Assembly (NCBI RefSeq): GCF_048128805.1
Contig: NC_136003.1
Location: 21,901,340-21,965,339, forward strand
DNA from: Centroberyx gerrardi
Taxonomy: Eukaryota; Chordata; Actinopteri; Beryciformes; Berycidae
Direction: 5' to 3'
DNA: 64,000 nucleotides
The notes below the pieces were generated by a model. The model worked only from the letters and a program-made list of their open reading frames with translations. It was not told the DNA's origin and did no database searches. Below are positions 324 through 64,000 of this stretch, in pieces. Each line of letters starts with the position of its first letter. The stretch's first letter is position 1. A program made the translations under genes and the position numbers.

Positions 324-28039
<27,716 letters not shown>

Positions 28040-31649: not shown

Positions 31650-32794
31650 GTATGGACAGCAGATCAAATACAATAACTCTATTTATTATCTGTCTCGCTT
31701 ACGTTTTGTTCAATTGCATTTAAAGCGCTATAGTAGACGCGGTGCCTTTCCTGCGAGTGTGACTTCTTTTGTGAAGCGTCGGTCCTGCCCATTCCCCCGG
31801 TCCTCTCCGAAGTAACGGGTCCTTTATCCTCCAAAACCACCCCGCCTTCAATAAGAATAATATTACATCCCGGTGTTCAATGTGATTTTGTTTCTGAACG
31901 GTCTGTTAGCACATCTATATAGCTTTGGCAGAATATTTTACTTAGGCTCATGGTTGTTCCCCCCCCCCGTGCGTGTCTTTTTGTTCACAGCATCATCGGT
32001 AACTCGCGCGCTCCGCGGTAGCGAGGAGCGCCCTTAACGAAAAACCACTATAATATTCCTACAATATTCATACAAGGGACTTAGCGCGTAGCCTACTGTT
32101 GTACTAAATGGTGAGCTAATAGTGACCTTATCGTACTTTATGGTATTTGTATCTACTATGGTATGACAATAATATTCCTATAGAGACTGTAATGTTTGTA
32201 TGATATCGCTGTAAAATGCATTATAGGATCTCTAGTTGTATAAGGGAGAGCTTTTGCCATTGTAAGCAATAGGCTACGCAATCTCAACTTTTGCCTTACT
32301 GAAAGAGTTTTTAATGCGGGTGGGAGCCCAAGCTGCATAGCAAAATCTTTCTACCACGTCATTTTTGAATGATATAACCGGGCTATACCCATGCCTATAC
32401 TTGTTTTTGTTTGTAGCCTAGGCTACTTCATATAAAACTTTTCCTCGTGCCTCACAGGTGATGTGTTAAAATGATCTGGTCATTTTTTTTTTTTTTTTTT
32501 TATAACTGCATTAAAAGAAAGCCCCGTGATCACCGAGACTCATGGGAGAGGGTGGGACCGTGCATTCTGCGAGTTTTCATTACTTCCAGATGTTCATCAG
32601 CTTTTCGTTGCCGCTTTCTGCCCTCAAATTTGCTTGTCTCACCGCCTGTCGCTGGTCAGTGGTCAGGCAGGGCAGAGGATACCCTCAAGATGGATGAGGC
32701 ATGATAGACCTATATTTCACCGGGATACAGACCAGGGAAAACCCACCTAAAACTCAGTTTAGCCACATTTTTAGGCTGCCATAAATCTTGTCAT

Positions 32795-33012
32795 AGTACA
32801 CACTGAATGTACAAAACATTAGGGAAGATTACTCTTTTCATGAAGTACACTGATGAAGTGAATCCAGGTAAAAGCCATCCCTTATTGTTTTCCCTTATTA
32901 AATCTATAACAATCACAAAGGAGATGTAGATAAAGAGAAGCAGACGAGCTGGAGAAGGCTTTTTAAGCTTTGAGACAACTGAGATGTGGATTGTGCAAAA
33001 GGGCTGCAACTT
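32795..33012. repeat. Diverged teleost DNA-repeat copy
   Basis: ACACTGAATGTACAAAACAT at the start, then CCCTTATT.. and a block with GAGACAACTGAGATGTGGAT, reproduce in order the parts of a repeat that is abundant in salmonid and other fish genomes. The copy is internally shortened and non-coding. Confidence 0.5.
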
Positions 33013-33439
33013 ATCAGGAAAATGTCCCTAATAAAAGTAGGATCAAATAGATATAAGTTAAATGAGAATAGGGTCTAATGCTTTTCTGAAAATCGAATTG
33101 TTTTTTGTTTATGTTAGTGGTTGTTTGTCTTATGATGATGGTCGACTGGAGGTCAGAGTTTATCCATCACTGGATGCAACAGGATGTCGATATGTGGGAC
33201 AGACTGATAGTCCAGTTTAATCAGTTTAATCAGTAAACACATCCGATGTTGTTTTGATGAAGGATATGCAGAACGTGACCGGGTCTGGAGGTGCAGTCTC
33301 CAGCCTGTTACCATACAATACTCTAACAAACTGTTGTTGTAACATACTGGTTGTTACTAAATGAACACCCAGGGAATAGCCGGAGATCATTAGCAGCTGC
33401 ATGGCCCTTAGACGGGCCGGGCACCCTCATTCATCCATG

Positions 33440-41963: not shown

Positions 41964-48739
<6,776 letters not shown>

Positions 48740-50245: not shown

Positions 50246-50589
50246 TTTCTACTGGATTCAATCTCTTTGATTTGTGTGTGTGTGTGTGCGTGTATTTGTT
50301 TGTGTAGGTCACCATCAGAGATGTAACAAGGTAAAACCACCTTAACTCAGTTCACCCACCTGTTTAGACTGACATAATCTTTAACACATAAAATCATAAT
50401 GTAGCCTATACATCATAGTAAGTTGTATTAAACTGATGTAAGTTATGTGAAGATAGGGTCTCTTGAGGGAAAAGAATAGATTACAGCTTTTGATTTTTGT
50501 TAATATTGGTGGTTATTTGCCTAATGATGTTCACAAACTGCAGGTCATAGTTTACCCATCTTTTCATTTACCACTTCATCACTGGTTTC

Positions 50590-52304
50590 CAGGGGTGTAG
50601 CACAAAATTCTGGGCCCTATACATAAGCAGTCTCTGTGGGCCCCCTTCCTCTCTTGATCCATGTCTCTCACGCATCTTTTGACTTTTTTTTTTACAAATA
50701 ATTGAGCCAACAACTGTACACATGAATCTGTAGTGGCAATATTGATAGATAATGTTACATGTCATTGTTGCTATGATGCTGATTAATTTATGTTATGCAA
50801 AAATATATGCTCCAAGCTATCCTGGTTGACTGCCTCCAATCTAAGCAACATACCGATATTAGTTTAAACCATTCTTAAACAGTGTTAGCAAGTTGTGCAT
50901 ACAGGATTGACATAGCCTCTTAACCTGCTTATAATATACCATATTGACCTTGATTATGAGACACCCCCCTTTTTTTCAAGACTCCTTTTTTGAAAAAGAT
51001 TTTTTGAAGATCAAATCTTGTTTTTATAAAGAAAAGAATTAAATCTGACCAGAATGCACCAGTAACACACTGAAAAAAACAAGGTAAGCTGATATATATC
51101 TTTTAAATGAAATTGTCTTGTTTGAATAGGCCAAAAAATTAAACTGCAGCCTACTGGTAGGTCTATTTCTAACATAATTTAACCATCTAAAAGTGAAAAA
51201 TAGAACCATAGGTTATATTTTAATTAGACTCTACCTCATTGATCATCATGATCTTAAAATTGGAATTATTCTCCTCCTCAGTTCTTGGTTTACTTGGCCT
51301 ACTTTTAACCCTCTGAAAATGATGGTGGATCATCTGGCATTAACATTACTGTCTTTTGAAGGCCGTTGCGGGTGGTATCATATGAATCTTGAGATTGCAA
51401 TGAATCCGTTGATACCAAACATGTCATGCTAGCTTACTGGGAAAGGGCTAAATATCGCTCCAAATTTGAACTGTCTTTACCGCGAGGTCCGCAACACCTC
51501 AATGTCAAATGATTGCTTGTAATAACTTTTAGCTCCACTTCACGAGCTCACCTTGTCTCACGTGCTCGGTAAGAGATGAGGGACCTGCTGCTGCTCCACT
51601 CTCGGTGGCTGTTTCTGAAACTGAGGGCCATGTGTTTCATGATGTTAAGCTTTGCTAGGTAATGTTGATAGATATAATGTCATATGACATTGTAGCTATG
51701 ATGCAGATTAATTTATGATACTGATTAATTTATGTTATACAATGCAAATATGCTCCAAGCTAGACTGGCTGACTGCCTTCAGTCTAAACAACTGCTGATA
51801 TTAGCTTAAACCATTCTTAAACTGTGTTAGTTGTGCTCAACTTTCTTTTGAAAGAAATTAAGTTAGCAGTTGTTTTCCCTCAGTTTGCTTTCTTTCTCTT
51901 TCCTTTCTTTCTTTTCTTTTTTGGTACCCCGATTTCCCTTTCTTGGGGAAAGACATGACTCTATCACAGTGCACATTGGTGCTCCAGCATCAGCAGTCAC
52001 TCGGCTCGGTTAGCTGCGTTTAGAGAGGAATCCTAGTGCAGGGGCGGACTAAACCATTTTGCGCCTTTTGTAAGGGGTGAGAGGGGCCTCAGAGAGCCTC
52101 CACTATTTATTTATTTTTTTATACAAAGTTCAGTCTCTCAACCGATTTATTCAGCCAATTTAAATTTAGTTATGACATCAATTACTTAGAAATAAAAAAT
52201 TGCAAACAAAAACAAACTTTTCATTCCAGGCTTTTCGAGGGCCCTCCCTGCATTGGGGCCCTGGGTAGTCAGTCCCACTTTTCCCCCAACTACAACGCCC
52301 CCTG
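50590..52304. mobile_element. hAT-like insertion with 8-bp target-site duplication
   Basis: The 1715-bp segment begins CAGGGGTGTAG and ends CTACAACGCCCCCTG, so both termini read CAGGGG inwards. It is flanked by CTGGTTTC on both sides (50582-50589 and 52305-52312), an exact 8-bp duplication as expected for hAT transposons. The downstream copy of the surrounding repeat has a single CTGGTTTC at the same place, the empty site. No transposase frame survives, so it is non-autonomous or decayed. Inside is a partial direct duplication (about 50743-50888 and 51665-51829). A second hAT-type start, CAGGGGCGGACT at 52039, suggests nesting. Confidence 0.85.
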
Positions 52305-52308
52305 CTGG
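52294..52308 (-). promoter_or_regulatory. CTCF-like motif spanning the hAT insertion junction
   Basis: On the minus strand this reads CCAGCAGGGGGCGTT. It fits the vertebrate CTCF core CCASYAGRKGGCRSY except at one position. CCAG comes from the duplicated target site and CAGGGGGCG from the transposon end. Binding is not shown by the sequence. Confidence 0.4.
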
Positions 52309-52352
52309 TTTCTATAGTATTAATATTAGGGAGGTAGTGGACGTTTACATGT

Positions 52353-52367
52353 CCACTAGAGGGCGCT
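52353..52367 (+). promoter_or_regulatory. CTCF consensus match, upstream of the globin pair
   Basis: CCACTAGAGGGCGCT fits CCASYAGRKGGCRSY at all 15 positions. It is inside the direct repeat and thus has an exact partner at 62146-62160 on the other side of the globin genes. It also forms part of a palindromic setting (CTAGAGGGCGCTCTAG). Motif match only. Confidence 0.45.
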
Positions 52368-54933
52368 CTAGCCCAATAATTTCAGCTCAAATATGCGTTT
52401 ACCTTCTATCAGGGTAGACCAACAGAGAGCAGTGTTCACCAACTCGAGGCTTTATCATTTCACAGAGCCCAAAGGACCCAAAGTGTCCTCCAGTTACCGT
52501 CATATATTCTGCAGCATCCTATTTCATTCCCCTTACTCGCATCACTCTATGTTTATCTAATATTTTATCCACAGTTTTATAATAAATGTTTTTTTTCTAT
52601 TATGCCCCCCAATGAAAAATCACTTTAATACCCCTGTAATAATCCTATAGGGATCTTTATTGTGTCTGTGGTACTCAATATGAGTTTATACTGACCATAT
52701 TGTACAATATGTTATTTTTTTTATGTCATATGATTTTAAGATAGCCCTATTATTCCTATAATAATCCTGCAAAAAATATCATACTATACGTCTTCCTCAC
52801 AAGGGGTGTAAAATGAAAACAAAAAATAGTTTAAAAACTCATCTCCTTATAGCAAGTGGGACAAAAATAAAATAAAATAAATAAAATTAGCAATTGATAT
52901 TAAAACCGTAAAACTGGTAGTTAAAAAAGCCTAAAAGTTACAGAAAACTGCAGAAAATTCAGTTGACCTAGGCTATATTGAAAAACACATAGGCCAATAT
53001 CCGAGGATATGTCTTATGTTGTGCCTAGTATGTGTAGTCCATAACCAAGGAGAAAACAGAGAAAGGCGCAAAAACTCTCGCAAATAATCCCTGTGGTCAG
53101 TTTCAGTCCCCGCCGTTAAACGGTTGTAAAATACCCTAAAAAACATGCATCGGTGGCCGTTGATGGTGTGCCGTTTTATGTAAGAAACGAGCGTGCATTG
53201 TAGGAAAATGCATCCTCATATTATCAGACTTGACCGTGACGTGCGCTTGATCATCACTCTAAATGTTGTGTAGCCTATGTGAACAGAGAAAAGTGGGCTT
53301 GGTGGCTAAACCAGAACCAAGAACATGACAGCTCAATGTCCACCTCCTGCACTAATATTCATGATTGTTATGATTTGGGGTTACAGCAATGGTTGAATCA
53401 ATCAATGACTCAAGAATCAATCCATTGGTGGCCAATTAATCGGTAATCAGTAGCCTAGTAATGTGTTGCTGCTGTCTTTTTTTGGAACACGTTCTTGATC
53501 TCGGTGGCACTAACTTTAATGAGCAATTATTCAATAAAAATAAAAATCAAGAAAAAATAAATGAATAAAATATAGCCGCAAGCGACCAATAGTGGAGTCT
53601 AAGCCCATTGGGCAAATGATTTGCCAGTGAGAATATAAGCTTGATTCATAATTTTGGAAAGGATCATCTCAACATCTCAGAATATTTCAGTGAAATTGTG
53701 CAACTGCAGGTGAGATGGTGCCTGGCGTATTGACATTTGAAAAATGCCAATTGGCCTTGTGGTAAATTTTTAGAGTGCAACCAAATAGTCTGACACACTT
53801 TAGGCATTCACAAACATTTAGGCTACATGAAGTTTGGTTGCTCAAACATGGGCGTTATAAGGAATTATGGCCCCGTGTCCACCAAAGACCTGAGAAAAAA
53901 GCGCTGGCGCTTTTTCATGAATTCCTATGGAAAGGTTGAGCTTACAACCCAAAACAGGTACCTGACCTCCTTTTAGCGCTGAGCGCCGTGAGCGCTGAAC
54001 CTGCCAGTTTGCGCGTCTTCGCCGTCAAGTTCTTTCTGTGCGTCACAATGGTTACAAGAATCAACATTCTGTGATATAAAAATGATGTAGGCAGTTAAAA
54101 TATTCGGTGTAACATTTGATGGAGATTAAGGCAACTGTGTAAGAGAAATGTAAAACAAGGTGCTATTGCAAGGGCGGCCTGATGTGGTCTGACACACTTG
54201 ACACCCTTCTGGGCCCCTTCCAAACACACAGGCTATGTGAGAGTTGGTTGCTCTAGCAGCAAGCGGTTAGGAACTATGCCTCACTGCCTGTGCATCATGT
54301 CAACTTCTTTTGTGCACTATGGCCAAAACGGCTTGGCCTTTCAAAACTCTGGGTAGTAGCAGTATCTAAGAAGTCCATATATGCTGTGAGCAAAACATTC
54401 TTAAGATTGGATCAACTTTGCAGGAGAAATAGTGAAAAATAGGTGAAAATGGCGAGAAACTGGTCAGGCTGATAAGGTTATTTTTTTTTTTTTTGCCTCA
54501 GTAGACTAGTGAGGGAGTTTTGAAACCTAGCCTGTTCACCAAATTTGATTGCTCTAACATGAAGCATCAATGAATTATGCCACATGTGCATCTTCGCCAT
54601 CCACTTTATTCATGCGTTAAGGCCAAACAGTTATGAGTAAGCCTATCAAAAATCTATGACCGAGATGCTATGACTCCAGCCACTGGGGGGCTGCGGGAAA
54701 TAAACGGGCTACAGTTGTCTTTTATCTTCTATTAATAGGCCTATCTGCCCAAAACAGCAACACAGTATAAGGCAACGAGGTCCTTGTCATGTACAGAGAA
54801 TCTTTGTGTTCCTCCAAACACAGCTGCAAGGAGCTAAAATTAATAATATATACAAAAATAAAAATATGTAATTTTCCAAATAATTAATATTTCTGAATAT
54901 TTCCAATAAAATCCAGATGCTGCCTGGAAGATT

Positions 54934-55400
54934 TCCAGCCAGTTGAAATCTGTAACTCAGAAAATGTCCAAGATGCTGACAGCCTAATAAAAGAAATCAC
55001 ATAAAAAATTACCACAAACGAAGTGGCCCAGTCTTGGGTAGCTGACACGGCACTATTTGCGCATACATTCAAGCTTATTAAAGCTTCCAAGGTCGACATT
55101 TTGATAAAATTCTACTTGTGCCGAGGTGTATCTTATTATTTTTAAACGTAAAAGTAGACTACCTATAGGCTAATGCCCTCATTTCAGTGCTAAGAAGTGT
55201 CCAATCTTTGAAACATTGACTTTTATTGGTTAAGATAAAGAGACAGCGGTGCATTTAATCCTATTGCCACTGGCTTCTTTAAAAATGTTTGAAGCTGAAA
55301 ATGTGTCGTTTTTTAGGAATTGGGTAGGTTCTCTGGGAAAAAGGTGACATAAAGGGTAAAACATGTGTATGTAGTGATGTAGGCTATAGGCTGGAGGAAT
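54934..55400 (+). other. Non-coding stretch upstream of the alpha globin
   Basis: This is AT-rich and continues the duplicated block, but whether it is duplicated cannot be tested because the downstream copy is cut by the window end. I see no gene in it. Confidence 0.5.
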
Positions 55401-55554
55401 ACTCAACTAAGCAATCATCAGCAGCTACAGAGTGAAAATGAAGATTGAAGCCTACTCTCTGTCGTCGGCTGAGTTTTTGGAAAACCAAACAGAGACCTAT
55501 ACAAGCTTCACTGTGGGATTGTGTGCGCAGCATTTTGCGCACCCCGAGTTGCCC

Positions 55555-55740
55555 GGGGCCACACCTCTGTATTCACACCTACAAACTTGGCTGTGCACCA
55601 GTGATTATTTTCTAAACAATCAGATAAGCGACAGCCAATGGCACAGTAACAGAGGTGGAGTCTTCAGGCAGCGTTTGCTGCTGCAGATAAGACAACAATA
55701 CATAAACCGCCGCGCAAAGATTGGGTCCGAGCCAGAAAGA
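55555..55740 (+). promoter_or_regulatory. hba: Alpha-globin promoter
   Basis: Erythroid-type elements in order: CCACACC (55559-55565, KLF-type), AGATAAG near 55622 (GATA), CCAAT at 55635-55639, AGATAAG at 55685-55691 (GATA), and CATAAA at 55701-55706 as a TATA variant about 55 bp before the ATG. The order and spacing suit a globin promoter. The word ATAAACCGCC is shared with the beta promoter. Confidence 0.65.
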
Positions 55741-55759
55741 CGACTGAGCAAAAGCAACA

Positions 55760-56505
55760 ATGAGTCTCACCGAAAAAGACAAAGCCGTTGTGAAGGCTTT
55801 CTTTAGCAAATTTGGTGGGAGGACTGATGACATCGGCACTGATGCCCTGTCGAGGTAAGGATGATTTAGGAATTCTTTGTAGGCTACATTAGAAAACACT
55901 AGGCTACAGTTTACAGCATACATTTAAGAGCGTTACAAACGTGAGGCCCCCTGTTGCGCACGCGTAATATCTCAATTGTCCCTGTTCTCTCAGGACTCTG
56001 GCAGTGTACCCCCAGACTAAGACCTACTTCGCCCACTGGAAGGACCTGAGCCCCGGGGCTCCTATGGTCAGGAAGCATGGCATGACCATCATGGGCGGCG
56101 TGCTGGACGCCGTGGGGAAGATGGACGACCTGTCCGGGGGCCTGCTCACTCTCAGCGAGCTGCACGCCTTCATGCTGCGAGTGGATCCCGCTAACTTCAA
56201 GGTGAGTCGTGACAGCTCTCCTAAACGAATAGCATCAGTGACTATAAACATCATCCAAATGAATTTTATGGTCATAAATTCTATGAATCCTTTCCATCGT
56301 TCCACGAGTCCATCAGGGGAAAGAGGGGCAGTTACGCACAGTATCTTATACATTTCTGTCCTCTTTTCATTCACAGATCTTGTCCCATAACATGCTTGTG
56401 GTTATGGCTATTATGTTCCCCGACGACTTCACCCCGCAGGTTCATGTGTCTGTGGACAAGTTCCTCGCCAAGCTCGCCTTGGCCCTGTCCGAGAAGTATC
56501 GCTAA
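55760..56505 (+). CDS. hba: Haemoglobin subunit alpha
   Basis: Three exons: 55760-55854, 55994-56201, 56377-56505; 143 codons before TAA, the normal length of fish alpha chains. Introns sit at the two conserved globin positions (after codons 32 and 101). Counting Met as 1, the distal haem histidine is His60 (VRKHG) and the proximal one His89 (LSELHAF). The start [15 protein letters not shown] and the end [10 protein letters not shown] are classic alpha-type. It pairs with beta chains in the red-cell tetramer. It lies about 1.4 kb upstream of the beta gene on the same strand. A poly(A) signal follows at 56567. The gene appears intact; its developmental stage of expression cannot be read from the sequence. 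Confidence 0.97.
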
Positions 56506-56566
56506 ACAGACCCAGATACTGACATGATTGTTGCAGTGCCAGCTGTATGAAGATGTGAATGTCTTG

Positions 56567-56572
56567 AATAAA
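56567..56572 (+). terminator. hba: Alpha-globin poly(A) signal AATAAA
   Basis: A canonical hexamer 62 bp after the stop codon, the usual compact 3' UTR of globin genes. Confidence 0.85.
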
Positions 56573-57208
56573 TGGATCTGTTTCAATCTGAACACTTTGG
56601 TTTCTTTCACTTTCTTTCACGTAATGACTCTGTTGAGTGTATTTTATTCAACCAAATCTTACAATGCAGAAATTAATCTATTAATAAAGAGCTATTGCTG
56701 CCTCGTCGAGTAATTATAATACCTACTGTATATTTTTTATTTAACAAGAGCCAACTATTTATATGGCATCTGAATCGTACTGCATTATAGCAAGGGTGTA
56801 GCCTACCAAAACCTTAACTGGACCACTGCGGATTATTTGTTTTCATAATCATATGATGAAAACCACAGACATGTCCTTTGCAAGTCACAAATAAACTTGG
56901 TTGAACAATATTAGCCTACAATGCAGAAATATGCTCAACTTATAGGCTATTGCACTACACAATTGCATTACATAATATTATACACTATCATTATAAATAA
57001 AAAATGGGTAAGCCTATAGGCTATTTGTATTTTTTCTATGCACATAGATTTGTCAAATGTTCATTTATTCTAAAAGGTTTAAACTATCATTAGCCTATTA
57101 TTGTTAGCCTATTATAATAAAAATAACAATAATAATAATAATAATAATTATTATTATTATTATATTATCAATAGTAGTAGTAGTAGTAGCAGCAGTAGCC
57201 AAATATAC

Positions 57209-57239
<31 letters not shown>

Positions 57240-57419
57240 AATTAGTAATAGCACAGTATTCATAAATATTTTTCCTGTTTCCAGGTACACTTCATTGAAT
57301 GTTTTTGTTAAAATGACTAAATAAGTTATTTAAAATTAGTAAAATTATACAGCTTTGTTCATTTTTATGTTTATGATTTTAGTATAACAATAATAACAAT
57401 AATAATAATAGTAATAATG

Positions 57420-57459
<40 letters not shown>

Positions 57460-57640
57460 TAATAATAATAATATGGTGTAGGTATACCTACTTTTGAAAC
57501 ATTTAATCACAGAGAGAACAGAGTAGAATATTTCATCAATAGTTCATCATTATTACAACGTATCAGCTCATTTTTATCCTATCATATTTTAATGTAGACT
57601 ATTTACTTTCCAAATTATTGTCCACATCAGCTGATATGCC
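56573..57640. repeat. AT-rich spacer between alpha and beta globin with AAT/ATT and TAG tracts
   Basis: The interval holds simple repeats: ATA/ATT runs at about 57120-57193 (AATAAT changing to TTATTA, so it can fold on itself), an AT run at about 57207-57238, and a long AAT run at about 57391-57472. No gene is visible. The tracts separate the two globin transcription units. Confidence 0.8.
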
Positions 57641-57647
57641 TGCATTC

Positions 57648-57840
57648 AGATAAGCCTATTCTCTGACAGAAAGAGCAGAATCCGAATCAGACAAGAATGT
57701 ATGAATCAGCAGGGAGTATGGTCACTATCACTGTCTCAATGTCTGCGCTGCCAGCTGTTTCCCTCAGACAGTTGCTTGTCTATGGGAGGAGTCGGTGAGA
57801 TAAACCGCCTATATATGCAGTGCCTTCAGTCTGCACCAAC
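57648..57840 (+). promoter_or_regulatory. hbb: Beta-globin promoter
   Basis: AGATAAG at 57648-57654 and AGATAA at 57798-57803 are GATA sites. TATATAT at 57810-57816 is a good TATA box about 65 bp before the ATG. The second GATA site runs straight into ATAAACCGCC, a decamer also present at the core of the alpha promoter. Confidence 0.65.
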
Positions 57841-57881
57841 AGGAAGACACTTAGTCTTGAGGATACCTCTGAACAGTCAAC

Positions 57882-58820
57882 ATGGTCGAGTGGACAGACT
57901 CCGAGCGCGCAATCATCCAGGACATCTTCTCCAAGGTTGACTATGACGTCATTGGCCCTGCAGCTCTGTCAAGGTATTACATTTACTGCTGTAAACTGCA
58001 AATATTCCCTGAATGTTCCTCTCCTCAGTGTTCAAGTCAGTCCAAGTCATTTTCATATATGATAATAAAGCTATATTTTCCATATTCTCTATGTTGTGCA
58101 TTTTCCCCGCACACTGACCCCATGTCTCGATTTAGCTCTAAAATTGAGTTTTTTTTATGTTTCCTAAGGTGCCTGGTCGTCTACCCCTGGACTCAGAGGT
58201 ATTTTGGCAACTTTGGAAACCTCTACAATGCCGCAGCCATTATTGGAAACCCGATGGTGGCCGCCCATGGGACGACCATCCTGCACGGTCTGGACCGGGC
58301 TCTGAAGAACATGGACAACATCAAGGAAACCTATGCTGAGCTGAGCGTGCTGCACTCTGAGAAACTTCACGTGGACCCCGACAACTTCAGGGTAGCCTAC
58401 ATATCTCCGACCGGTTTCCTATTCTAATATTCTAATAAGTTCAAATAAGTAGTATAATAAGTAACAAATTCATCCACTCTAATGCGTAGATTCATTTGTA
58501 ACTATAAATGCCGTCTCAGACAAATTTGCATAGCCTTCTACTCGGTTATCTTTAATAGCTGTACAGTGAGTAATTTTTGGTATTGTTTTGGTATTGATCT
58601 GATTTAGAGGGTATTTTCTGGTCCGTGCTTGGTGGGATAATCCGGACATGATGTTACCCACATATTAAACAACTTTGTCTGTTGTTTTCAGCTGTTTTCA
58701 GACTGTCTGACCGTCGTGCTTGCCAAACAGATGGGCACTGCTTTCACTGCTGATGTCCAGGCAGCTTTCCAGAAGTTCCTGGCCGTCGTGGTTTCCTCCC
58801 TGGGAAGGCAGTACCACTAA
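57882..58820 (+). CDS. hbb: Haemoglobin subunit beta
   Basis: Three exons: 57882-57973, 58169-58391, 58692-58820; 147 codons before TAA, normal for beta chains. It starts [12 protein letters not shown], a typical fish beta N-terminus, and ends LGRQYH with the C-terminal His used in the Bohr effect. Counting Met as 1, the distal His is 64 (VAAHG) and the proximal His is 93 (LHSEKLH), followed by Ser94 (position F9). Ser at F9 is common in teleost beta chains and has been linked to the Root effect. Introns are at the conserved globin positions. The exon 3 acceptor is the first of two TTTTCAG words; the second would shift the frame. A poly(A) signal is at 58906. Confidence 0.97.
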
Positions 58821-58905
58821 AAGTCTGGCAGCATGAGCAAGAGAACCATCATGACGCTTGATTTTACTGATTTCCACAAACTAACTGTGCTATCTTTAAA
58901 ACAAG

Positions 58906-58911
58906 AATAAA
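58906..58911 (+). terminator. hbb: Beta-globin poly(A) signal AATAAA
   Basis: A canonical hexamer 86 bp after the stop codon. Confidence 0.85.
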
Positions 58912-59293
58912 AGTTGCGTAGGCTAGTTGTCATCAAAACGTTTTTGTATTGAATTATTGTCTGACCGTGTGTCTGGGCTATGCGCCGACCTGCGAATGTG
59001 TGCTTAGTGATAGATGGATAGAGATGGGAGAGAAAAAAGAGAGAGAACTACAAAGCCATACAAAATACATGTCATAAAATAAATGTAATATGTAATGGTG
59101 CAGTATAGATTATATTTACATCTATTGGTAAAAAAGTAAGAAAAGAAAAACAACTGTAGCCAAAATGATAGACTATTACAGCACAAACGATGAGCTGTAG
59201 CCTCTTCACAGCTATTCAGAAAATCTCTGCGCTATTATCTTATTCAAAAGCAGTTGCTCAGAAACTTGAATTCGACTTGATTAAAGTCCGCAT

Positions 59294-59345
59294 AGATAGA
59301 TAGGAATTTATTAATCCCAGAGGGAAATTCAAATTGTTACAGCAG
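59294..59345. repeat. Teleost interspersed repeat end
   Basis: AGGAATTTATTAATCCCAGA followed by GGGAAATTCAAATTG is a phrase present in great number in fish genomes. Only a short end fragment is present. Confidence 0.6.
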
Positions 59346-59821
59346 CAGACACTTAAGTCACCAAACATATACTAGACAAAACAAAGCACCAATCAGGTAG
59401 CCTACATAATTAGGAGAATAAAAATAAATAAATAAGCAGTTGTCTGGTGAAATTATACTTAGTCTAGATTTAATACAAATATTTATTTATATTTAATATT
59501 TTATCATATTTAATTTGAGATGCTCGGCCAACTACAACTTTACTGCTGCCTGTTGGATTTTTTTTTGTATGTTTTTATTTGATTTTACTTTATTTTTGCA
59601 CTGGTGTCAAATGCATCACTGATTAAATATCAAGGTCCTAGGCTACATGGACCGCCTAGCAGACGGTTTTGGATAAGTATAGTGTGGCTTAAATAAGAAT
59701 ATAAGCCTATACAATAGCCCTGTCAACTGTTTATTTTGATATGGGCCCGTTATCCCTTTTAGTAGCTATTTCATGCAGGTTTGTGTTTGGTGTGAGATGC
59801 CTTACAGCTTTATCTTTTTTT

Positions 59822-60600
59822 AGGGGTCCAAGCACGTAGTGCTGGAACCCTATTGTATTTGCTGGAATTATTCTGCTTCTTTCTTTCTTTCTTTCTTTCT
59901 TTCTGTCTTTCTGTCTTTCTGTCTTTCTTTCTTTCTTTCTTTCTGTCTTTTTCTCCGCTAAAAGTATCTGCAGCTCAGAAACCGTAAGTCCTACAGCAGC
60001 CATATTTGGCAGGTGGGCTCCTATGACCCACCACTACTCAGGCAAGTCAGCCCATGCACACTGGCCAGATGGTGGCGCTATAACAAGCAACTTTACGTTT
60101 TGGCCAATCACTTCTGAACCGTGTGTCGTAGACTGAAAATTCTTGTGTTCCTAGATTCTTTGGAAGGTACAGAGTCCAACCCATATCTCACTTTCAATGT
60201 CCACCATATTGCATTGTCCGCCATTTTGAATTATTTAAGAAACACTTTTTTTGCAACTCCTCCTAGGCCATTCATCCAATTCACATCTTTCAAAGTTGTA
60301 CAAAGGTTATTGATAGGTCAAATGGTTTGGCTTTTATCGACCAATAAACTTTTAACGAAACACGCCATAACACTAAATTGGCCATAACTCATTAACCATT
60401 CATCTAATCAAGCCAAAATTTTAAACACATATTGAAAAGTGTTGCGTGAACACACCCACAAAAGCATTTTGAGCTGCACCACTAGTGGGCGCTACAAATG
60501 CAAAAAGTTCATATCTCATAATTGACTGCATAGATTTTTATGGAAATTTTTACACATGTTCTAGGATGATGTCCAAGTCGATGCATGAAATGTGGTCATT
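59822..60600. repeat. Large teleost repeat beginning 'aggggtccaagcac'
   Basis: It opens with AGGGGTCCAAGCACGTAGTG and CTGGAACCCTATTGTATTTG, then a TTTC-type microsatellite (about 59876-59950), then blocks such as GCCATATTTGGCAGGTGGGC and ATGGTGGCGCTATAAC. This is the layout of a long, very common fish repeat with no known protein. Recurring phrases (CATATCTC, CCAAAATTTTAAACA) fit its internal repeats. Open frames in it are not conserved proteins. Confidence 0.65.
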
Positions 60601-60899
60601 ATTGATAAAAGTGGGCGTGGCTTATTGCATAATAACCAAATCTTCATTGGTATTAAAGTCACAACTTCAAAAATTCATTAAAAATCAGCCGTATGTCCTA
60701 GAGAGCTGAAATTTTCAGGACATGTCGGCTGAAGTGAGATGAATCTTTCGTACACTGGTACCTACCCCCGATTCTGAAATCGCCCCCCTCTGTTTATAGC
60801 AAAAACTGACTGTGATCCCACGGTGTTGCCCTTAAATCGCCATACCTTAATTAGTAAACAGCCCAAAAATTATAATGATATGTTGAAAACTGAGCGCAC

Positions 60900-60985
60900 A
60901 GTAATAATAATAATAATACATTTAATTTGTAATGCACTTTTCATTAGAAGTAAATCTCAAAGTGCTACAGAGTAAAGGAGAAAAG
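60900..60985. repeat. Teleost repeat tail (TTTAATTTGTAATGCACTTT type)
   Basis: Preceded by an AATAATAAT run, it reads TTTAATTTGTAATGCACTTT and then TCTCAAAGTGCTACAGAG, a diverged relative of the repeat tail at 2832-2995. Confidence 0.5.
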
Positions 60986-61454
60986 AAAAAAAAACAGGAG
61001 CATAAAAACTGATAAAAATGAACCAACAGCAAAGATCCTAAAAGCCACACAAAGGAAAAACGCCTGATTAAAAAGGAAAAGCTTATAGACAATGCATAAA
61101 GACAAAAATAAAAAAAACAGCACAAAGTTAAGGAAAGGCTCTGTTAAAAAGGAAGGTTTTTAGGCCTCTTTTGAAAGCATCGATAGTAGATGTAGATGGA
61201 AATGTGCAGCTGCAAATAGTTTGATAAATTGATAATGTGATATGTTCAAGATAGTTTGATCAATCTTGATCAAACTAAATACAAATGATGTCTGGACTGT
61301 CAAGATGATGTCTGTAAAGCCATGTGTAAATTGATTAATGTGGCGCGCTAGTACAGTTATAATATTCTTTCTGAGGCTTTCAATATGGTTTGGACTAGCA
61401 CCTGTGACCAATCACTTGTCCCTTTGTTCCGTTTCCCCACTGTGACACACACCA

Positions 61455-61530
61455 AAGTGGAAGTTGGCAGAGTGGTAAAGCTTAGGTCTTTGGACTACAA
61501 GGTTGTGAGTTCAAGCCCCTGATGAACTGT
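61455..61530 (+). repeat. tRNA-derived SINE or tRNA relic
   Basis: TGGCAGAGTGG (61465 region) matches the pol III A box, and GTGAGTTCAAGCCCC about 35 bp later matches the B box. The acceptor stem does not close convincingly, so this is a SINE head or decayed tRNA rather than a working tRNA gene. Confidence 0.5.
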
Positions 61531-61817
61531 GACAATTTTTAAGTTTCATGAAAAGTAAATCACACAGTGCAGAAAACTCAGAGCAGGTGTTGGACATCAT
61601 CTGTCAATGGCAAAATATCTGAATGTCATCACTGATTGGGGCGTGGCCAGACCTCTCAACCCACAGAGAGCAGTGCAGCAGCAGTTTTCTGACCCATGTG
61701 ACTTCCTATTGTTTTATTCGTTAATGGAGAGCACTACAATGTTCGATAAAGTGATTAGCACTGTCAGTCTGTCAATCATATAGGCTGCAGTATCACACTA
61801 CTTCTCCCTTTAGTGTG

Positions 61818-64000
61818 TGTGTAGGTCACCATCAGAGATCTAACAAGGTAAAACCACCTTAACTCAGTTCACCACCTGTTTAGACTGACATAATCTTTAA
61901 CACATAAAATCATAATGTAGCCTATACATCATAGTAAGTTGTATTAAACTGATGTAAGTTATGTGAAGATAGGGTCTCTTGAGGGAAAAGAATAGATTAC
62001 AACTTTTGATTTTTGTTAATATTGGTGGTTATTTGCTTAATGATGTTCACAAACTGCAGGTCATAGTTTACCCATCTTTTCATTTACCACTTCATCACTG
62101 GTTTCCATAGTATTCATGTTAGGGAGGTAGTGGACGTTTACATGTCCACTAGAGGGCGCTCTAGCCCAATAATTTCAGCTCAAATATGCGTTTACCTTCT
62201 ATCAGGGTAGACCAACAGAGAGCAGTGTTCACCAACTCGAGGCTTTATCATTTCACAGAGCCCAAAGGACCCAAAGTGTCCTCCAGTTACCGTCATATAT
62301 TCTGCAGCATCCTATTTCATTCCCCTTACTCACATCACTCTATGTTTATCTAATATTTTATCCACAGTTTTATAATACATGTTTTTTTCTATTATGCCCC
62401 CCAATGAAAAATCACTTTAATACCCCTGTAATAATCCTATAGGGATCTTTATTGTGTCTGTGGTACTCAATATGAGTTTATACTGACCATATTGTACAAT
62501 ATGTTATTTTTTTTTTATGTCATATGATATCAAGATAGCCCTATTATTCCTATAATAAGCCTGCAAAAAATATCATACTATACGTCTTCCTCACAAGGGG
62601 TGTAAAATGAAAACAAAAAATAGTTTAAAAACTCATCTCCTTATACCAATAGTGGAGTCTAAGCCCATGGGGCAAATGATTTGCCAGTGAGAATATAAGC
62701 TTGATTCATAATTTTGGAAAGGATCATCTCAACATCTCAGAATATTTCAGTGAAATTGTGCAACTGCAGGTGAGATGGTGCCTGGCGTATTGACATTTGA
62801 AAAATGCCAATTGGCCTTGTGGTAAATTTTTAGAGTGCAACCAAATAGTCTGACACACTTTAGGCAGTCACAAACATTTAGGCTACATGAAGTTTGGTTG
62901 CTCAAACATGGGCGTTATAAGGAATTATGGCCCCGTGTCCACCAAAGACCTGAGAAAAAAGCGCTGGCGCTTTTTCATTAATTCTTATGGAAATGTTGCG
63001 CTTTCAGCGCTTACAACCCAAAACAGGTACCTGACCTCCTTTTAGCGCTGAGCGCCGTGAGCGCTGAACCTGCCAGTTTGCGCGTCTTCGCCGTCAAGTT
63101 CTTTCTGTGCGTCACAATGGTTACAAGAATCAACATTCTGTGATATAAAAATGATGTAGGCAGTTAAAATATTCGGTGTAACATTTGATGGAGATTAAGG
63201 CAACTGTGTAAGAGAAATGTAAAACAAGGTGCTATTGCAAGGGCGGCCTGATGTGGTCTGACACACTTGACACCCTTCTGGGCCCCTTCCAAACACACAG
63301 GCTATGTGAGAGTTGGTTGCTCTAGCAGCAAGCGGTTAGGAACTATGCCTCACTGCCTGTGCATCATGTCAACTTCTTTTGTGCACTATGGCCAAAACGG
63401 CTTGGCTTTTCAAAACTCTGGGTAGTAGCAGTATCTAAGAAGTCCATATATGCTGTGAGCAAAACTCTTAAAAAACTCTCAAAATTCTTAAGATTGGATC
63501 AACTTTGCAGGTGAAAATGACGAGAAACTGGTCAGGCTGATCAGGTTAATTTTTTTTTTTTGCCTCAGTAGACTAGTGAGGGAGTTTTGAAACCTAGCCT
63601 GTTCACCAAATTCGATTGCTCTAACATGAAGCATCAATGAATTATGCCACATGTGTATCTTCGCCATCCACTTTATTCATGCTTTAAGGCCAAACAGTTA
63701 TGAGTAAGCCTATCAAAAATCTATGGCCGAGATGCTATGACTCCAGCCACTGGGGGGCTGCGGGAAATAAACGGGCTACAGTTGTCTTTTATCTTCTATT
63801 AATAGGCCTATCTGCCCAAAACAGCAACACAGTATAAGGCAACGAGGTCCTTGTCATGTACAGAGAATCTTTGTGTTCCTCCAAACACAGCTGCAAGGAG
63901 CTAAAATTAATAATATATACAAAAATAAAAATATTTAATTTTCCAAATAATTAATATTTCTGAATATTTCCAATAAAATCCAGATGCTGCCTGGAAGATT
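61818..64000 (+). repeat. Direct repeat, downstream copy (truncated by window end)
   Basis: It is colinear with 50301-54933 but compact: it lacks the hAT-like element and the 734-bp segment 52852-53585. Small differences include an extra GCGCTTTCAGC-type insertion near 63000 and an AAAACTCTTAAAAAACTCTC insertion near 63463. The last base corresponds to 54933 in the upstream copy, so the repeat has no visible right end. Confidence 0.92.
62146..62160 (+). promoter_or_regulatory. CTCF consensus match, downstream of the globin pair
   Basis: It is identical to the motif at 52353-52367 and in the same orientation, because both lie in the direct repeat. It matches CCASYAGRKGGCRSY at every position. 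In this copy the adjacent junction motif is absent, as the hAT-like element is missing. Confidence 0.45.

Follow-up and report, generated by a model that had tools for sequence, protein, structure and literature searches.

The window analysed here, a 64,000-nucleotide stretch of the genome of the fish Centroberyx gerrardi, contains one complete pair of hemoglobin genes, hba-1 and hbb-1, within a unit of about 11.5 kb whose second copy opens inside the window and continues beyond its end. Very probably, the hba-hbb pair closest to kank2 was doubled when this unit (50301-61814) was duplicated once, head to tail; insertions and deletions and a probable conversion of hbb followed. Two complete pairs, colinear copies of the unit, the junction between them, both outer flanks and an empty site for a hAT-like insertion can all be read directly in the assembled sequence. 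The genome searched throughout was the window's own assembly (779 Mb in 278 contigs), in which the window occupies C7:21901340-21965339; positions beyond 64000 continue the coordinates of the window downstream.

Two colinear copies of a unit with an hba-hbb pair

50301-61814, plus strand: copy 1 of the duplicated unit, about 11.5 kb, with hba-1 and hbb-1
61818-64000, plus strand: start of copy 2 within the window; the copy runs beyond the window to about 69384 (C7:21970723)
55760-56505, plus strand: hba-1, exons 55760-55854, 55994-56201 and 56377-56505; 143 amino acids; GT/AG splice sites
57882-58820, plus strand: hbb-1, exons 57882-57973, 58169-58391 and 58692-58820; 147 amino acids; GT/AG introns

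Comparison of the window with itself, at E <= 1e-10 and a minimum length of 150 bp, recovered four repeat pairs, three of which belong to a block beginning at 50301. The first-pass annotation, which was made from the letters of the window, had described this block as recurring at 61818 in the same orientation, about 11.5 kb away, and as still matching at the window end, and the self-comparison confirms each of these points: an exact match opens at 50301 = 61818, and the correspondence runs on to the window end, where 64000 = 54933. The block comprises three segments in copy 1, namely 50301-50589 (segment A), 52313-52853 and 53588-54933 (segment C), which together answer to 61818-64000 in copy 2; the 1,715 bp and 734 bp that lie between these segments in copy 1 are both missing from copy 2. 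Within the window the block shows 26 substitutions in 2,151 aligned positions, gaps excluded (98.8% identity), which is far above chance expectation. Between the two block starts lie exactly one complete hba and one complete hbb, as had been claimed, both on the plus strand, and their products match structurally characterised hemoglobin alpha and beta chains.

From this arrangement a tandem duplication including the globin genes had been proposed as the simplest reading, with a second hba predicted to start about 827 bases past the window, by a subtraction (55760 - 54933 = 827) that is correct. A globin profile search of the genome located exon 2 of a second hba 9,065 bp, and exon 2 of a second hbb 9,087 bp, beyond the first, with equal bit scores within each type. 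The ATG of hba-2 lies at 64825, 825 bases beyond the window end, and that of hbb-2 at 66969, so that a reader without tools had placed an unseen gene start within two bases. The second pair occupies 64825-67907, and both of its genes have intact reading frames and GT/AG splice sites. The alpha chains are alike except at position 16 (S to T, numbering from the initiator methionine), and there is no difference between the beta coding sequences.

The downstream sequence was aligned to the unit and the hba and hbb copies compared, which was the check suggested in the first-pass annotation. The copies are colinear through the complete second pair (53585-59268 = 62645-68350) and then correspond in pieces up to 61803 = 69384, the whole alignment from 50301 = 61818 to that point covering 7,442 positions in six segments, within which there are 29 gaps, the longest of 31 bp. 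Neither an end of similarity soon after 64000 nor, with 40 of 458 candidates for segment C scored, a dispersed repeat was found, the two outcomes that the annotation had named as telling against it. The tandem reading itself stands but needs refinement: the similarity spans the rest of the unit, with several large insertions and deletions distinguishing the copies. An end of similarity at 60903/69008, suggested by a listing of pieces of at least 250 bp and at least 80% identity only, was rejected, as the alignment continues beyond a 288-bp insert and a 238-bp deletion. The two copies are thus adjacent, colinear, nearly identical and on the same strand, as tandem duplicates are.

Breakpoints and the differences between the copies

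50270-50310: left breakpoint in a TG-rich tract; the exact match opens with TGTGTAGGTC at 50301
61804-61827: junction of copy 1 and copy 2; element sequence ending CTCCCTTTAGT, then GTGTGTGTAGGTC
59816-61814 (about): high-copy dispersed element, containing the 288-bp insert and truncated on the right at the duplication breakpoint
50590-52304: hAT-like element, copy 1 only; 1,715 bp between 8-bp direct repeats CTGGTTTC, with termini CAGGGG...CCCCTG
52854-53587: piece in copy 1 only; 734 bp, one genome place found
59269-60279: piece missing from copy 2; 1,011 bp, including the left part of the dispersed element
60904-61191: insertion in the element of copy 1; 288 bp, missing from copy 2 and from 7/7 family loci
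61415-61652: element piece missing from copy 2; about 238 bp, spanned in 7/7 family loci

The left breakpoint is situated 2.1 kb beyond the kank2 stop, and a TG-rich tract is present at this breakpoint only. The last 2 kb or so of copy 1 are formed by the dispersed element, for which a 914-bp query returned 40 listed matches, including that of the window itself (40 of 769 first-look candidates scored). In copy 1 this element breaks off after CTCCCTTTAGT, at the start of copy 2, while in all seven family loci compared it is uncut and runs on as TAGTTTCTCC; after copy 2 it carries on to about 69750. The copies share neither the flank left of 50301 nor the one that follows copy 2 on the right. 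An element that is cut at 61814 and continues after the last copy, together with unshared outer flanks, is what a head-to-tail duplication of 50301-61814 would be expected to leave. At the join, the parent sequences overlap by at most a few bases as judged by eye, and copy 2 departs from the element family over about ten bases beside the breakpoint. The right flank of copy 2 has two weak matches elsewhere in the cluster, at 73-74%. A plain exchange between two TG tracts was dropped as an account of the junction, the sequence to the left of which is the dispersed element.

The 1,715-bp insert is matched in copy 2 by an empty site with a single CTGGTTTC, the signature of an 8-bp target-site duplication, and it carries terminal inverted repeats that are imperfect beyond the first six bases. 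These are the features of a hAT-like insertion that came after the duplication. The genome has 64 pieces matching the insert, the window's own included (40 of 50 candidates scored); the others are its relatives, and most of those listed match only part of it. Non-autonomous hAT copies lack a transposase gene. The one 84-amino-acid open frame of the insert that was scanned contains no transposase domain, and the insert is probably non-autonomous. It also has an internal direct repeat, at 76%, between 50735-50888 and 51658-51830.

The remaining differences were polarized largely by reference to the dispersed element, the direction of those at 59269-60279 and 60904-61191 being judged from the seven family loci. 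The 1,011-bp piece was deleted from copy 2, because it contains the left part of the element, and the element sequence within it is carried at least partly by all seven loci. Likewise, the piece of about 238 bp was deleted from copy 2, since all seven loci span it, and the 288 bp absent from these loci were gained by copy 1 after the duplication. The 734-bp piece, which was at first viewed as an insertion in copy 1, was found at one genome place; for this reason an insertion is less likely, and the piece was probably lost from copy 2, a direction that is not proven. No Pfam domain was detected in ten open frames of at least 50 amino acids in and around the shared segments (a subset of such frames), nor in two frames within the pieces found only in copy 1, and Rfam gave no match across the window at gathering thresholds.

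Taken in order, a left break in the TG-rich tract and a right break inside the high-copy dispersed element would have yielded the tandem copy, presumably by some form of recombination. Copy 1 then gained the hAT-like element and the 288-bp insert, while the pieces of about 1,011 and 238 bp, and probably the 734-bp piece as well, disappeared from copy 2; gene conversion probably made the hbb copies alike again later.

Divergence of the copies and competing explanations

57510-58932, plus strand: tract free of substitutions between the copies; 1,418 aligned positions, covering the whole of hbb including its introns

Over the whole unit, 92 substitutions separate the copies in 7,442 aligned positions (1.24%), with 1/876 in coding and 91/6,566 in noncoding positions. 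From this we infer that the duplication is recent. The divergence is uneven, ranging from 0 to 22 substitutions per 400 positions, both peak windows overlapping AT-rich microsatellites. After masking of the microsatellite stretch (57080-57480), which leaves 66 substitutions in 7,053 positions, the run of 1,418 compares with a mean longest run of 503 in 20,000 shuffles (P = 5e-5); on noncoding positions only, the longest run gives P = 0.001. The same test on the part within the window, stopping before hbb, found nothing unusual (longest run 399, P = 0.12). The tract points to probable gene conversion between the hbb copies after the duplication, the alternatives being conservation of the introns or an effect of assembly.

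A third hbb is present on the minus strand at 81634-82615, inverted and about 14 kb beyond hbb-2. It is 98.2% identical to hbb-1 in exon 2 and 96.1% in exon 3 but only 84.8% in exon 1, and as exons 2 and 3 are alike but exon 1 is much less so, partial gene conversion is suggested for this gene.

The tandem duplication could also be older than a divergence of 1.2% implies, if repeated conversion has kept the copies similar; such a history would be compatible with the head-to-tail origin as a variant of it, and we regard it as possible though rather doubtful. It would account for the substitution-free tract over hbb standing beside a spacer, immediately before hbb, with 2.8% divergence. However, the microsatellites contribute to the figure for the spacer. 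Elsewhere in the unit, divergence is 0 to 2% per 400 positions and no part looks clearly older, and neither the breakpoint nor the cut element has lost its sharpness.

Several observations weigh against a simple recent duplication. Because the divergence is uneven, a single date for the event is not secure. Part of the block consists of old dispersed-repeat material, which makes it a less clean case: segment A is weakly matched at 32733-33168 (57.2 bits at best, where 40 randomised sequences with the same dinucleotide composition reached no more than 29.2 bits), and a genome search with segment C listed 72 matches, of which the 70 besides the two copies are all at or below 89% identity (40 of 458 candidates scored). 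In addition, the copy number given here is that of one assembly and may differ from that of the living animal, and both breakpoints fall in repetitive sequence, where assemblies also break. A divergence of about 1.2% lies within the range possible for two haplotypes of one fish. The region 32733-33168 is itself a diverged relative of segment A on the same strand, with patches at 77-79%, and represents an old dispersed repeat.

These points bear most directly on a false haplotype duplication, in which two alleles of one unit would have been placed in series by the assembler. The 1.24% divergence, the several insertions and deletions and the transposon present in one copy and absent from the other all resemble differences between haplotypes; the join has a high-copy element on one side and a TG-rich tract on the other; and false duplications accounted for 4 to 16% of the earlier assemblies in the three species studied (PMC9516828). 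The location of both breakpoints in repeats fits a true and a false duplication alike. On the other hand, the join is gapless, with zero N in the 153,661 bp of the window and joined downstream sequence on a contig (C7) of 34.4 Mb, and the parent sequences overlap there by at most a few bases. We consider an assembly artefact improbable. That the block is a dispersed repeat present at both places by chance, without the globin genes, is highly improbable: segments A and C do contain old repeat-derived pieces with relatives up to 89% identity, but the similarity passes through both globin genes to the unit end, near-identical copies of segment C were found only at the two places here among the scored candidates, and the second pair at 64825-67907 refutes it.

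The MN hemoglobin cluster and its growth

42320-48202, plus strand: kank2-like coding exons flanking the MN globin cluster, with KN motif, ankyrin repeats and a stop codon at 48200-48202

The KN motif lies in the frame 42320-43774 and the ankyrin repeats in the frame 47772-48179, and both lobes, A and B, of a DHR-2 domain are encoded in frames at 24.5-26.4 kb, marking a dock6-like gene. The domains identify KANK and DOCK proteins, and the assignment to kank2 and dock6 in particular follows published synteny. On the other side, the NPR3 family is matched at C7:22047978 and C7:22053801, past the last globin (22032289). The MN cluster is reported to be flanked by kank2, dock6 and nprl3 (PMC9670116). 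As kank2-like and dock-family exons are found on one side and the NPR3 family on the other, as in the accounts of PMC10256766 and PMC9670116, we assign the locus to the teleost MN hemoglobin cluster, at its kank2 side.

The genome has 22 globin exon matches, 16 of them within this cluster, which contains 9 hba and 7 hbb genes plus 2 hbb fragments; at the threshold used, no first exon was found for two of the hba. The fragments (95872-95994 and 101970-102175), one of which has a stop and a frame change, are probably remnants of older pairs. Farther downstream, 118361-132151 forms a large inverted duplication whose matched arm pieces are 80-98% alike; each arm has a head-to-head hba-hbb pair, and exons 2 and 3 translate identically between the arms. 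A second globin region, C20:20072001-20092000, has an hba-like exon 2 spread over two frames (19214-19391 of three joined stretches) that looks broken, and a diverged alpha-type gene further along. In hbb of the unit the YPWTQ motif has a threonine at what we take to be the beta-39 site.

The MN cluster of Southern bluefin tuna has the same kank2, dock6 and nprl3 flanks and repeated alpha-beta pairs, but differs in its gene numbers and in a cysteine reported at beta-39 (PMC9670116). The notothenioid and yellow perch clusters likewise have kank2 and nprl3 flanks and transposon insertions (PMC10256766). Compared with that account, the unit, its breakpoints and one post-duplication hAT-like insertion are resolved here within one genome, and a dispersed element is the site of the right breakpoint; for one species that paper points instead to TAT-like repeats ahead of each pair. 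The hAT-superfamily DNA transposons have 8-bp duplications and short terminal inverted repeats, features described for Tol2 (PMC4818426), and the insert described here similarly has an 8-bp direct repeat, short inverted ends and relatives in the genome.

Lineage-specific tandem duplication of an alpha-beta pair in the MN cluster has already been published (PMC10256766), and such gain is an ordinary route by which fish hemoglobin clusters grow; the present case offers a well-resolved example of it, with breakpoints and several later events placed in order. Tentatively, it may be viewed as a recent and perhaps still copy-number-variable duplication in which hbb and its introns are held identical by conversion, partly shared with the third hbb, as the flanks drift. 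As both pairs have intact frames and splice sites, they probably yield nearly the same hemoglobin, and the second pair would thereby add dosage.

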